NCBI GenBank assembly: GCA_017467275.1
Contig: JAFTSN010000003.1
Span: 38,673 to 102,672, forward strand
DNA: 64,000 bases
Direction of reading: 5' to 3'
From: Clostridia bacterium
GTDB taxonomy: Bacteria > Bacillota > Clostridia > Christensenellales > Borkfalkiaceae
Shown one piece after another: positions 30,864-64,000 of this stretch. Positions within the stretch are counted from its first letter, which is position 1, and each line of letters starts with the position of its first letter. The notes under the pieces are model-generated. The model worked only from the letters and a program-made list of their open reading frames with translations, did not search any database and was not told the origin of the DNA. Made by a program: the position numbers and the translations under genes.

Positions 30864-31867
30864 TCAGGATCGCTATCGATTTGGGCACCTCCATGACCAA
30901 GATCTTCCGTGCGGACGCGGGGAACGGTCTCGTTCTCGCCGAGCCGTCCTGCGTGGCGGTCTCGGGCAGTGAGCGCGAGATTCGCGCGATCGGCAAGGAG
31001 GCGAAAAAGCTGGTCGGGAAAACCGCGGAGTTCACCGAGATCGTGTTCCCCGTTTACGAGGGGGAGATTGTGGACGGTAGACTTGCCGCCGTGATGCTCA
31101 AAAAATTTCTTGAGCGGGTGGGCGTGACGGCAGCGACCCTCCGTCGCACCGAGGCGGTTTTTTCCGTCCCCTGCGGTGCGGACGCGGCAATTAAGGCAGA
31201 CTATGCGGCGCTCGCGGAGGAGTGCGGACTCAAGAAAGTGCGCTTTGTCGAGACTCCGTTTTTGGCGGCGCTCGGCTCGGACGCGGTCTTAAGCGAATCC
31301 TCGCCCGTGTTCACGATCGATATCGGCGGCGGCGTAACCAATATTGCGGCGGTCTCCCTTTGCGGCGTAATCGCGGGACTGTCCATGAACATCGGCGGCA
31401 ACAATATGGATGCGAATATCATTGCGCGTATCGAACAGTTTAAGGGGCTTCGTATCGGCGCGCTCACGGCAGAGCGCGTGAAAAACGAGATCGGCTCGCT
31501 CTCGCCCGTCGCGCGCGGCACAACGGTGGCAGAGGGCAGCTCGGTGTCGACGCTTCGTCCCTCGTCCGTTTCCGTGCAGGCGGCGGAGATCGTCGATTGT
31601 CTGCGCGTTTACGTGGATAAGATCGTCGAGTATGCGTCCTTGATTTTAAGGAAGCTTCCCGCAGAGGTTGCCGCGGAGGTCAACCGTAGCGGGGTGTATC
31701 TTTCGGGCGGGGTTGCCAAGCTCTCGGGCGTGGCGGAATACGTCTCAAAAAGGCTTGAAATGCGCACCCATGTCAGCGATGAACCGCAGTTTGCCGTCAT
31801 TATGGGTGCGGGCACGCTCGCCCGCGACAAGCGGCTTTTAGCACTTCTTTCTCCCGACGGAGAATAA
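30860..31867 (+). CDS. MreB-like actin homolog
   Basis: 335 residues. The ATP-binding actin-fold motifs are present: phosphate-1 IAIDLGTSMTKIFR, phosphate-2 TIDIGGGVTNIAAVS, and the adenosine motif SGGVAKLSG. The GLSMNIGGNNMDANII segment matches MreB (xRxGGDxMDxxI). The protein is divergent from standard MreB, which usually starts with DLGTANT. The position after maf supports MreB and a role in rod-shape peptidoglycan synthesis, but mreC and mreD do not follow. Translation is coupled to maf by ATGA. Confidence 0.82.
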   Translation: MIRIAIDLGTSMTKIFRADAGNGLVLAEPSCVAVSGSEREIRAIGKEAKKLVGKTAEFTEIVFPVYEGEIVDGRLAAVMLKKFLERVGVTAATLRRTEAVFSVPCGADAAIKADYAALAEECGLKKVRFVETPFLAALGSDAVLSESSPVFTIDIGGGVTNIAAVSLCGVIAGLSMNIGGNNMDANIIARIEQFKGLRIGALTAERVKNEIGSLSPVARGTTVAEGSSVSTLRPSSVSVQAAEIVDCLRVYVDKIVEYASLILRKLPAEVAAEVNRSGVYLSGGVAKLSGVAEYVSKRLEMRTHVSDEPQFAVIMGAGTLARDKRLLALLSPDGE

Positions 31868-31882
31868 TCGGTCAAAAAATAA

Positions 31883-31925
31883 ACGCTCTCCCGCAATTAA
31901 GCGCGGAGAGCGCGTTTTATTTTAT
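31883..31925. terminator. Bidirectional terminator, mreB-like gene and micro-ORF unit
   Basis: ACGCTCTC and GAGAGCG(C) form the stem with a CCGC/GCGC inner part; GTTTTATTTTA follows on the plus side and TTTATTTTTTG on the minus side. Confidence 0.75.
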
Positions 31926-32026
31926 TTAGTTTTTGGGAGCCGCTTCAGACCTTTTGTTCGAGCCTTTTTGCTATAAGATAGGGGACAGTGTTCCTTTTTT
32001 CACTGCCGATTATTTGCGACCGAACG

Positions 32027-32062
32027 TCAGTCTCTTTTAGACTCCTCGGCAAAATCGTACAT
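32027..32062 (-). CDS. Micro-ORF E (11 aa, MYDFAEESKRD)
   Basis: The start ATG at 32062 has CAAGGAGAAACTCCA directly upstream. The frame closes with TGA after 11 codons. The +1 frame, reached by skipping the T of GAC-TGA-C, stays open for about 27 more codons to 31945 and encodes a basic, ordinary-looking sequence; a GAGGAG purine stretch lies about 13 bases before the stop. This is reminiscent of programmed +1 shifting at UGA but could equally be a decayed gene. No family recognised. Confidence 0.4.
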   Translation of the reverse strand: MYDFAEESKRD

Positions 32063-32077
32063 TGGAGTTTCTCCTTG

Positions 32078-32128
32078 TTATGCGATTTCCGCTTTGCGGA
32101 TAAGAGGTTTCCTTAACACCGTTTTCAT
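32078..32128 (-). CDS. Micro-ORF D (16 aa, MKTVLRKPLIRKAEIA)
   Basis: A perfect ribosome site (GTAAGGAGGTAACG) precedes the ATG at 32128. The peptide and its upstream site are a diverged copy of micro-ORF C (shared pattern MK-x-(L/V)-L-(K/R)-KPL-(V/I)-R). It is basic and amphipathic, and too short for a signal peptide. Confidence 0.5.
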   Translation of the reverse strand: MKTVLRKPLIRKAEIA

Positions 32129-32163
32129 GCTCTTTTCGTTACCTCCTTACGCTGAATTTATGC

Positions 32164-32208
32164 TTAAAAAGCACAGCGTACGAGAGGTTTTTTCAACAGT
32201 TTTTTCAT
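32164..32208 (-). CDS. Micro-ORF C (14 aa, MKKLLKKPLVRCAF)
   Basis: The ATG at 32208 follows GCAAGGAGGTTACAGAATAAAGA. The site overlaps the end of frame B, whose TAA lies three bases before this ATG in the same frame. Tandem duplicate of D. Confidence 0.5.
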   Translation of the reverse strand: MKKLLKKPLVRCAF

Positions 32209-32211
32209 TCT

Positions 32212-32331
32212 TTATTCTGTAACCTCCTTGCGCTTTTTTGACCGAATTTTCCCCGTCTCGCTTCTCTCACCCGTGTTCTTGTTTTGAGCGGGCCGCCCGT
32301 TCGGCTTTTCGGGTTTTGGATTGACCGTAAT
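32212..32331 (-). CDS. Micro-ORF B (about 39 aa, basic; start unusual)
   Basis: An open frame of 39 codons rich in Lys, Arg, Pro, Asn and Glu, ending ...KKRKEVTE. It has no ATG, GTG or TTG start. ATT at 32331-32329 overlaps the TAA stop of the micro-ORF A frame by one base (TAATT, like the common TAATG coupling), so re-initiation at AUU or a -1 shift at the end of A are the ways it could be translated. It may also be untranslated leader. Confidence 0.3.
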   Translation of the reverse strand: MTVNPKPEKPNGRPAQNKNTGERSETGKIRSKKRKEVTE

Positions 32332-32375
32332 TAGTGCATTGGTCTGCCTCCTGAAAAACTGAAAGACTTTAACAT
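32331..32375 (-). CDS. Micro-ORF A (14 aa from ATG 32375, or Met-His from ATG 32339)
   Basis: The frame ATG 32375 to TAA 32331 encodes MLKSFSFSGGRPMH. Its upstream region has no ribosome site. The strong CAGGAGGCAGACC instead precedes a second in-frame ATG at 32339, which would make only Met-His-stop. The minimal ORF may serve to load ribosomes for frame B. Confidence 0.3.
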   Translation of the reverse strand: MLKSFSFSGGRPMH

Positions 32376-32405
32376 TTTTTGTTTGTTATCATCTTTTGTA
32401 CCTTT

Positions 32406-32433
32406 ATTATAGCACATATTTTCCATTTGTCAA
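32406..32433 (-). promoter_or_regulatory. Strong promoter of the micro-ORF unit
   Basis: TTGACA (32433-32428), 16-base spacer, TATAAT (32411-32406) preceded by TGC. It is almost identical over about 27 bases to the promoter at 36810-36837. Predicted start about 32399; the transcript would run to the terminator at 31883-31925. The 606-base gap 31868-32473 therefore holds a terminator, this promoter and the micro-ORFs. Confidence 0.8.
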
Positions 32434-61091: not shown

Positions 61092-61141
61092 AGGAAAATT
61101 CCGCCTAAAAGAAAAAAATATGAAAAATTTTCCGTAAACGC

Positions 61142-61170
61142 TTGCCAAATCCTTTTTTTCGGCGTATAAT
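61142..61170 (+). promoter_or_regulatory. Promoter of the corA leader
   Basis: TTGCCA (61142-61147), 17 bases, TATAAT (61165-61170). It would make a 5' leader of about 315 nt, containing a small ORF and a terminator. Confidence 0.7.
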
Positions 61171-61246
61171 AAGAGTAGACGGAGCGTTTTCGGCACGGTT
61201 CGGGGACGTTCGTTATAAAACAGTCAAGGAGTCATCAAGGCATATT

Positions 61247-61336
61247 ATGGACGCTGGGCCAAATTACCGAAGTACGGCTACGACAACTTATGAAAACCCG
61301 CCGCGGACGGTACGGAGTGTTTTTACGGAAGATTGA
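61247..61336 (+). CDS. Possible leader peptide (29 aa)
   Basis: Frame MDAGPNYRST...PRTVRSVFTED* with AAGGAG about 17 bases upstream, which is far. It includes Pro-Pro and several Arg. It lies between the promoter and terminator in front of corA, like the leader peptides of some magnesium transporters. May be fortuitous. Confidence 0.3.
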   Translation: MDAGPNYRSTATTTYENPPRTVRSVFTED

Positions 61337-61383
61337 TTTCACGGGCGAATAAGAGCCCGCAATTCCCGAAAATACGATAAACG

Positions 61384-61420
61384 ACACGCACGGGCGGTTT
61401 TTCCCGTGCGTTTTTCTTTT
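61384..61420 (+). terminator. Terminator within the corA leader
   Basis: ACGCACGGG/CCCGTGCGT with a CGGTTTTT loop, then TTTTCTTTT. It lies about 70 bases before corA, so it may act as an attenuator. Confidence 0.75.
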
Positions 61421-61490
61421 GCTTTTCCAAGCGGAAAGAGGAAAAGAGAAAGACGCTTTTCTCGAAATTTTACGGAAGGCGGTGACGTTT

Positions 61491-62772: not shown

Positions 62773-62840
62773 CGGCTTATCAAAAATTTCAAAAAAATTT
62801 TCCGAAAACGAAAAAATCTTAAAAATCTTTTCAAAAATGC

Positions 62841-62869
62841 TTGACTTTATCTTTTGTAAGTGTTATTAT
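62841..62869 (+). promoter_or_regulatory. rRNA promoter upstream of 23S
   Basis: TTGACT (62841-62846), 17 bases, TATTAT (62864-62869) with TGT before it. Expected start about 62876, roughly 300 bases before the 23S gene. Confidence 0.7.
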
Positions 62870-62875
62870 GTATAA

Positions 62876-63175
62876 GCTGTCACTTGAGAGAGCATACTTT
62901 TTTAAGCACAGCGCCCGCTTGTGAGCGGGGTAAGAAGAAGATTGACAACTGCATAGCAAAAATAGTCAAAGTTTCTTATTTTTTTTGAAAAAGAAGGAGA
63001 TAAGAGACGAGTACGAAAAGGCAAAGAGATAATCATATTAGTAAAGCTAATAGGTTAATACGAAGCAAAGAGTAACGACAAGAACGCAAGGACTTGGACG
63101 GACTTGAGCTGCGGACTTATTAGCCGAGTAAAAAGGATTAGAATTTTGTGTAAGAGACGAGTAGAAAGAGAGAAA
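62876..63175 (+). other. 23S leader resembling a 16S-23S spacer
   Basis: No tRNA or 16S sequence. A GACAACTGCATAG stretch resembles spacer DNA after 16S genes. TAAGAGACGAGTA occurs twice, at 63001-63013 and 63151-63163; a CCCGCTT/GAGCGGG hairpin lies at about 62908-62923. Confidence 0.5.
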
Positions 63176-64000
63176 GATCAAGCTACAAAGAGCTTACGGA
63201 GGATGCCTTGGTACATGGCGCCGAAGAAGGACGTGACAAGCTGCGAAAAGCTACGTTAAGGAGCAAATATCCGTAGAGACGTAGATATCCGAATGAGGAA
63301 ACTCAGCACGAGTAATGTCGTGTTATCATATACTGAATCAATAGGTATATGAGGGGAACCCAGGGAACTGAAACATCTAAGTACCTGGAGGAAAAGAAAA
63401 CAACAGTGATTCCGAGAGTAGTGGCGAGCGAAATCGGAGGAGCCCAAACCTTGAGTAGTAATACTGAGGGGGTACGGACCGCGAGAACGTATCCGACTTG
63501 CTAGTCGAACTAACTGGAAAGTTAGAACAAAGAGGGTGAAATTCCCGTAGACGAAAGCGAGGGAGAGCGAGCGGAATCCAGAGTACGTCAGGACACGAGA
63601 AATCCGGACGGAAGAAATGGGGACCATCCCAGAAGGCTAAATACGACCATGTGACCGATAGCGAAAAGTACCGTGAGGGAAAGGTGAAAAGACCCCCGGG
63701 AGGGGAGTGAAAGAGAACCTGAAACCGTAAGTTTACAAGCAGAGAGAGCCTTATTAGAAGGGGCGATCTCGTACTTTTTGTAGAACGGGCCGGCGAGTTA
63801 CGATATGATGCGAGGTTAAGCGTTAAAGACGCGAAGCCGAAGCGAAAGCGAATCTGAAGAGGGTGAGAAGTATCATGTCGTAGACCCGAAACCGAATGAC
63901 CTAACCATGAGCAGGTTGAAGCAATGGTAAAACGTTGTGGAGGACCGAACACACGCCTGTTGAAATAGTCGGTGATGACTTGTGGTTAGCGGAGAAATTC
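63176..64000 (+). rRNA. 23S ribosomal RNA, 5' part (runs out of the window)
   Basis: Matches the 5' domain of bacterial 23S: GGATGCC at 63201, GAAGGACGTG, CCGAATG..GGAAAC, CTGAAACATCTAAGTA, AGTAGTGGCGAGCGAA and GTACCGTGAGGGAAAGGTGAAAAG. The 5' end is placed by counting back from GGATGCC as in E. coli, within about five bases. The gene is cut by the window end, so about 825 bases of roughly 2900 are seen. Confidence 0.96.

Follow-up and report, generated by a model that had tools for sequence, protein, structure and literature searches.

What is the use of a consensus promoter that leads into no ordinary gene? The question is raised by a block on the minus strand of the window (the whole stretch of Clostridia DNA analysed here, 64,000 nt), next to an mreB-like gene. 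A sequence-only reading had described there a near-perfect promoter, four tiny ORFs behind strong ribosome sites and a terminator, and had suggested a peptide-based regulator, a family of micro-proteins or a sponge-like RNA. Its observation is confirmed and its interpretation partly supported. Judged by comparison with relatives, a conserved RNA gene is present here in a divergent copy; on the same comparative grounds its RNA is structured and translated, and the gene belongs to a single family of Clostridia. We hold its anatomy and the selection on its reading frames with high confidence; its job, discussed last, is a more tentative matter.

The block and its parts

The promoter (32406..32433, minus strand), of the sigma-70 type, consists of TTGACA and TATAAT separated by 16 nt, with a TG element, scores 12/12 against the consensus and is kept in relatives. 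With the start set 4 nt past TATAAT, the predicted transcript covers 31874..32401 of the minus strand, to which all features named here belong. It opens with a 5' hairpin found by folding (32362..32396), whose helix covaries in 32 relatives, the window excluded. Then comes the Shine-Dalgarno sequence (SD) of ORF A, AGGAGG (32347..32352), and ORF A itself (32331..32339), a Met-His-stop minigene. ORF B (MKKLLKKPLVRCAF, then a stop; 32164..32208), behind the SD AGGAGG (32223..32228), resembles a tandem copy of the D unit, and the near relatives L020 and L055 have a single ORF of the B/D type. ORF D (MKTVLRKPLIRKAEIA, then a stop; 32078..32128) follows the SD AAGGAGG (32142..32148); its frame is kept in relatives, with peptide constraint in genus g47. 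The SD of ORF E (32071..32076) lies 1 base past the D stop, and ORF E (MYDFAEESKRD, then a stop; 32027..32062) contains the 5' arm (32040..32045) of a stem, P1, whose 3' arm lies at 31936..31941; both arms rest on the arm-swap test given below. Next to the latter is the 3' motif (31923..31934), AAAAACTAAATA in the window and ACAACTGAATA in its usual form. The unit ends, as had been claimed, in an intrinsic terminator (about 31874..31913), a strong hairpin and then a U-rich run in the fold; a pattern scan reported terminators only on the plus strand, and the minus-strand one came from folding. No ORF of 60 aa or more lies inside the transcribed block, which thus holds no normal gene; one such ORF (31609-31896, minus strand) begins in the terminator region and continues antisense to the mreB-like gene.

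The pattern MKxxL(K/R)KPL(V/I)R, an apparent peptide family, had been put forward for a search in related genomes. When the window is folded locally, the SDs of ORFs B and D each pair with the AAACCTCT codons of their own ORF (predicted partner strands 32183..32189 in B and 32102..32108 in D); when the whole RNA is folded, these strands form cross-pairs between B and D. As the predicted partner of the SD of their ORF, these codons account for the repeated MKxxLxKPL motif. The peptide occurs in none of the other 47 complete units of the genus, and the family was rejected.

Spread and genomic neighbours

In a DNA search of 101 genomes (the window's own and 100 relatives), 62 gave matches at E 0.01 or better: 52 of the 57 genomes of the genus and 10 others, the 10 being weak. 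Most matches span just the promoter plus some 45 nt of leader, because, as reading of the loci showed, the architecture is conserved and most of the sequence is not. Complete units, delimited by simple rules (promoter, and 3' motif with up to 2 changes), number 48, one per genome, in 48/57 genus genomes, and are 340-831 nt long; that all 48 end in a form of ACAACTGAATA directly before the terminator is part of the delimiting rule. Outside this count are L028 (genome G034), with promoter and leader and no 3' motif by the rule; weak or contig-end matches in G010, G015 and G017; and five genus genomes that gave no match in the DNA search. L057 (G088) was dropped since its promoter-like match leads into an ordinary repressor-like gene. 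The units share a common plan: promoter, 5' hairpin, minigene A, hairpins, ORF D, ORF E, a 3' domain closed by P1, ACAACUGAAUA and terminator. The window copy departs from it in that no hairpin was found by rule at +17 to +20 past ORF A, and was omitted from the 5' alignment. A pattern scan of named genomes picked out 22 metagenome-assembled Clostridia, 17 of them titled as roe deer, sheep, goat or water deer gut and 5 bearing titles that name no host.

Two covariance models were used for more distant relatives. R1, built on the 5' region of 32 units with the window excluded, finds the window (E 4e-6) and 46/201 genomes of the family, along with 10/297 genomes in a sample of the order, 9 of them family members. 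Although the promoter is absent from this model, it stands at an identical offset in 9/11 R1 loci from other genera; it is 8 nt off in L119, a partial match, and was not found by regular expression in L118, the order-level match from outside the family. R2, built on the D-E segment of nine other-genus loci and thus blind to the window, finds 70/201 family genomes in 8/18 genera, the window included (E 1.2e-4), and 8/291 genomes in a sample of the class, 5 of them outside the family. Among 27 further loci, a promoter-like sequence precedes the match by 43-311 nt in 18; the nine in which a regular expression found none are L185 and L191 (g2), L192 and L166 (g44), and L168-L172, the last five being the class-level matches from outside the family. 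R1 matched no g47 genome among the matches listed, and of the genus g1 genomes in its family sample, at least 29, R2 matched only 3, so each model alone misses much.

Read by eye, sequences from g4, g44, g46, g47, g51 and g55 follow the same plan, L108 (g48) does so partly, the copies read have a promoter and terminator of their own, and the 3' motif recurs in other genera. A script for D, E and the 3' motif found all of them in 34/51 loci; some of its misses are units read by eye (L136, which is G147, as L112), so its rule is too strict. In the samples of the order and class searched, no convincing copy was found outside the family. Genome G137 (g48) has two R1 matches at separate places, L108 and G137:C24:34730-34885, and L108, without the usual 3' motif, may be a diverged paralogue. 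The shortest copies, L186 and L187 (g51; about 250 nt), still have a promoter and terminator, D, E and the 3' motif and apparently no minigene A, as a natural minimal version would. Optional middle modules (L009, L010, L011, L022, L024 and others) share the element GACGAA...CGGTAGGYRCTCG; their ORF ends in DTPTYT, and CUCC-RACG stands there instead of the usual CC-RAUG.

The RNA gene matches no catalogued Rfam family, ROOL, GOLLD, OLE, 6S and tmRNA included, in the window and nine loci run: at gathering score the whole window returned only 23S rRNA, and the nine loci, at E up to 1, returned two sub-threshold sRNA matches in L037, outside the unit. A tmRNA or a substitute for one was rejected, as the window's own genome has a tmRNA (E 4.6e-59). 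An element of phages or plasmids was likewise rejected, on 0 matches of a 25-base pattern in viral contigs and on a distant blastn of the L029 copy (623 nt; one of the 48), which found nothing in phages or plasmids.

Neighbouring genes, those downstream included, vary between loci. The mreB-like gene (so named by the sequence-only reading) adjoins the unit in 31/58 loci, upstream on the same strand in 28 of the 31 and downstream and convergent in 3 (the window, L020 and L049); a gerC-like gene is near the unit in 9 loci of two genera. These counts are lower bounds because the flanks were short (at most about 3 kb).

Selection on structure and on reading frames

RNAalifold on the plain 5' alignment gave almost no structure, and the 5' structure was written by hand from the sequences of 32/48 units, the divergent ones, with the window among them, being omitted. 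In its helices 89% of cells pair and 14/21 pairs show changes on both sides; 0/500 shuffles, which ignore relatedness, reach the score, and sliding the partners destroys it. A hairpin begins +17 to +20 past ORF A in 35/48 units vs 2% of shuffles, and the loop of hairpin 2 shows AGGGA. P1, present in 45/48 units, covaries and closes the 3' domain. It starts 16-18 nt past the A of the ORF E ATG, its second arm lies just ahead of the 3' motif, and the 9 nt from ATGAAC/ATGTAC to P1 vary in sequence and keep their length. When arms were swapped between units, own arms scored above the mean of swapped arms in 48/48, and 0/10000 permutations reached the observed mean. The view of a unit made only of tiny ORFs holds as regards a free-standing, strongly promoted unit with real ribosome sites, and needs amending in that covarying helices make this unit a structured RNA as well.

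The SDs themselves tend to be paired. Across the genus, mean pairing probability vs shuffled flanks is 0.61 vs 0.49 for A (higher in 32/48), 0.70 vs 0.37 for B (39/45), 0.55 vs 0.34 for D (35/45) and 0.56 vs 0.43 for E (33/48), where B and D may be one ORF in short units. Most of the g46 loci read have, as their D site, a hairpin of the CATATCG-GAGGTAC-CGATATG type whose 3' arm includes the start codon.

The frames are kept in ways that differ from ORF to ORF. ORF A has 2 sense codons in 14 units and 3 in 33 (47/48 in all; L041 has no ATG there), its codons vary and all three stop codons are used. ORF E stops at codon 9-14 in 48/48 units, whereas stops in the other two frames are scattered; the rule by which A and E were located includes their ATG. 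For ORF D, a GGTAY anchor is found in 39/48 units and an SD-preceded start in 38 of these. The distance from start to anchor is 18, 21, 24 or 27 nt, a multiple of 3, in 36/38, and the exceptions, L053 and L056, look like anchor errors, another anchor giving 24 for each. As an internal control, the spacing from the D SD to the start takes all residues modulo 3 (16, 10, 12). The start codon is GTG instead of ATG in two copies of D (L033 and L039) and three of E (L119, L157 and L163). With 52/57 genus genomes matched, 48/57 bearing complete units, and ORF A and the E stop so regular, strong sites before such short frames are indeed more than chance, and the conservation of ribosome sites and start codons in relatives, proposed as a check, was found.

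Of B, D and E, only D shows peptide constraint. The g47 peptide is MYRSDLRKLA or nearly so, synonymous changes are many, and pN/pS is 0.10 vs 1.72 and 1.51 in the shifted frames (6 distinct sequences, 9 loci). In g1, codons after TAY give 0.55 vs 1.07 and 1.30, a value that includes the wrong-anchor rows L017, L053 and L056. A lower value of 0.16 for the RYFNKE codons was discarded as biased, because the regular expression that picked 27/48 rows had fixed those codons. D of g46 is ambiguous (0.52 vs 1.71 and 0.71), and no peptide constraint was seen for D of g44 (0.83 vs 0.84 and 1.04), for E (0.89 vs controls 0.79 and 1.10) or for B (0.74 vs 0.86 and 0.99). D peptides are almost wholly different between genera. 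On these values D is probably a selected peptide in some genera, while for A and E it seems to be the act or extent of translation that is conserved rather than the peptide. The suggestion of micro-proteins thus survives for D, through its triplet changes in g1 and its constraint in g47, and is not borne out for B and E.

What the RNA may do

Dual-function small RNAs of bacteria encode peptides and are structured. The present RNA is like them in joining structure to translated short ORFs, and by its sequence it has a translated short ORF under selection; it differs in its chain of ORFs, its minigene of 2-3 codons and its P1 stem inside the last ORF. The arrest-peptide attenuators ermC and tnaC also couple short ORFs to RNA structure, whereas here no downstream gene lies in the transcript. 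Published minigenes and two-codon ORFs, as treated in PMC8708949, regulate a downstream gene in cis. Here the minigene form (SD, start, 1-2 further codons, stop) is present in 47/48 units, but no gene follows in the transcript: only micro-ORFs lie downstream of A and the terminator directly past the unit. ROOL, GOLLD and OLE (PMC12286853) are likewise large structured bacterial RNAs of unknown role; here there is no Rfam match and the tiny ORFs are part of the RNA. Searches of open-licence papers brought up no system of this form, in agreement with the earlier reading. Since dual-function small RNAs, minigenes and large ornate RNAs each share one feature with it, we regard the architecture as new in kind; to count it as a new dual-function RNA is also defensible.

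We tentatively favour, at somewhat less than even confidence, a free-standing, strongly promoted, structured and translated bifunctional RNA that acts in trans and is engaged by ribosomes, with a job that probably depends on ribosomes reading it. Ribosomes would first bind at minigene A near the 5' end, terminate almost as soon as they had initiated, and there probably serve as a 5' cap protecting the transcript. More would enter at ORF D, whose SD tends to sit in a local hairpin, so that, we propose, initiation is gated. Those finishing D could pass to E, whose SD overlaps or adjoins the D stop, and translation of E would have to unzip P1, the closing stem of the 3' domain, a few nt from ACAACUGAAUA; the RNA would thus have a translated and an untranslated state. 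It would most likely act in trans, reporting ribosome availability. Transcription, these ribosome movements, protection and the action in trans are what we infer from the anatomy. It is supported by the separate promoter and terminator of the copies read, the covariation in the 5' helices and P1, the short ORF A with a hairpin behind it, the triplet spacing of D and its constraint in g47, SD pairing above shuffle, GTG for ATG, and the variable neighbours. Against this reading stand the SDs that pair above shuffle in only 32-39 of 45-48 copies each, the frames without peptide constraint (E, B and D of g44) or with an ambiguous value (D of g46), the divergence of the window copy and the lack of an ORF A ATG in L041.

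The 8-19 aa D peptide might instead be the effector of a micropeptide gene, in which RNA structure, A and E only set the translation of D. We think this possible but rather doubtful: the triplet-only length changes of D and its low pN/pS in g47 and g1 speak for it, yet the peptides are almost wholly different between genera, g44 shows no constraint, and the conserved 2-3 codon ORF A and the geometry of P1 are left unexplained. If the peptides and the switch were irrelevant, strong SDs on an abundant RNA could bind 30S subunits and lower the free ribosomes. Several SD-preceded ORFs per RNA and a consensus promoter would suit such a sink, and for LEE4 it is reported (PMC8708949) that a strong SD ahead of a minigene, once bound, can have an effect even if the minigene is not translated; but paired SDs lower capture, and the D frame and peptide constraint find no explanation, which makes the sink unlikely. 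Decidedly unlikely is a purely structural noncoding RNA, in which the SD-like purine runs and the ATGs would serve the structure and the ORFs would be mere by-products. Strong covariation, the lack of constraint on E and B, and the ACG in ATG position in the optional middle modules agree with it, whereas the retention of a stop, of any of the three kinds, after 2-3 codons of ORF A, GTG for ATG, and the triplet-only changes and pN/pS of 0.10 in D do not.

Two further explanations were rejected. An attenuator could look like this, with gated SDs and short ORFs before a terminator, and the unit often adjoins the mreB-like gene, as a cis-acting leader for a neighbouring gene might; however, the next gene is convergent in the window, the mreB-like gene is mostly upstream of the RNA, and within flanks of at most about 3 kb no conserved same-strand downstream gene was found. 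With neighbours so variable, a leader is very improbable. A CsrA sponge like CsrB was considered since AGGGA, seen in the loop of hairpin 2, is close to the CsrA site. It has next to no probability because CsrA is absent from 37/37 genus genomes searched, in a search whose control finds CsrA in 3/14 well-known genomes. Of the sponge-like RNA originally suggested, the CsrA type therefore falls, and the ribosome sink is what could stand.

The 3' motif bears on a more specific form of the ribosome-engaged RNA. It resembles a motif in the 23S rRNA leader of the same genomes, a likeness to boxA of rRNA leaders, the NusB/S10 site; here, unlike in those leaders, the motif stands at the 3' end, before a terminator. 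The published boxA consensus GYTCTTTAANA (PMC5725501), which is for gamma-proteobacteria, is not matched exactly by the 3' motif. In the four genomes first examined, the 23S leader carries TTRACAACTGCATA with a promoter-like sequence of its own ahead. The strict pattern AMAACTGMATAGC occurs in 12/14 genomes and 4/5 genera, with 14 matches vs 2 for the reversed control. For the ACAACTGMATAGC-type matches, 23S lies downstream at +213 to +248 in three and the contig ends 65-192 nt later in eight; of the rest, one is on the opposite strand in the interval from 23S to 5S, and two are at unrelated places. The resemblance is a lead, and hints at a link to ribosome synthesis. Ribosomes on D and E might open P1 and alter the boxA-like 23S-leader mimic and so, through titration of NusB/S10 or of a processing factor, tie rRNA synthesis to translation capacity; the RNA would be usually single-copy and family-wide, with the 2-3 codon minigene as ribosome cap. 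We consider this form quite unlikely as it stands.

The RNA gene, family-wide and without an Rfam match, has micro-ORFs under selection and no ordinary gene inside. It falls between the categories of mRNA and noncoding RNA, and annotation of either kind would therefore miss it. If the ribosome-engaged reading is true, it would offer a testable RNA whose function is being translated rather than making protein, and possibly a new link from translation capacity to rRNA synthesis.

Three side observations concern other loci. At about position 1500 of L123 (G000:C9), TTTGACAACTGAATAGC, the motif shared by the 23S leader and the 3' end of the RNA, stands ahead of small genes, in a region that looks like a mobile element. 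At about 62840-63176 of the window, and in L126, L128 and L129, 23S rRNA lies behind protein genes with a promoter-like sequence of its own, and therefore seems not to be directly preceded by 16S there. Finally, about 250 nt without an obvious gene at 61140-61430 of the window (plus strand), with a TATAAT-like box and a strong terminator, may be a possible second small RNA.
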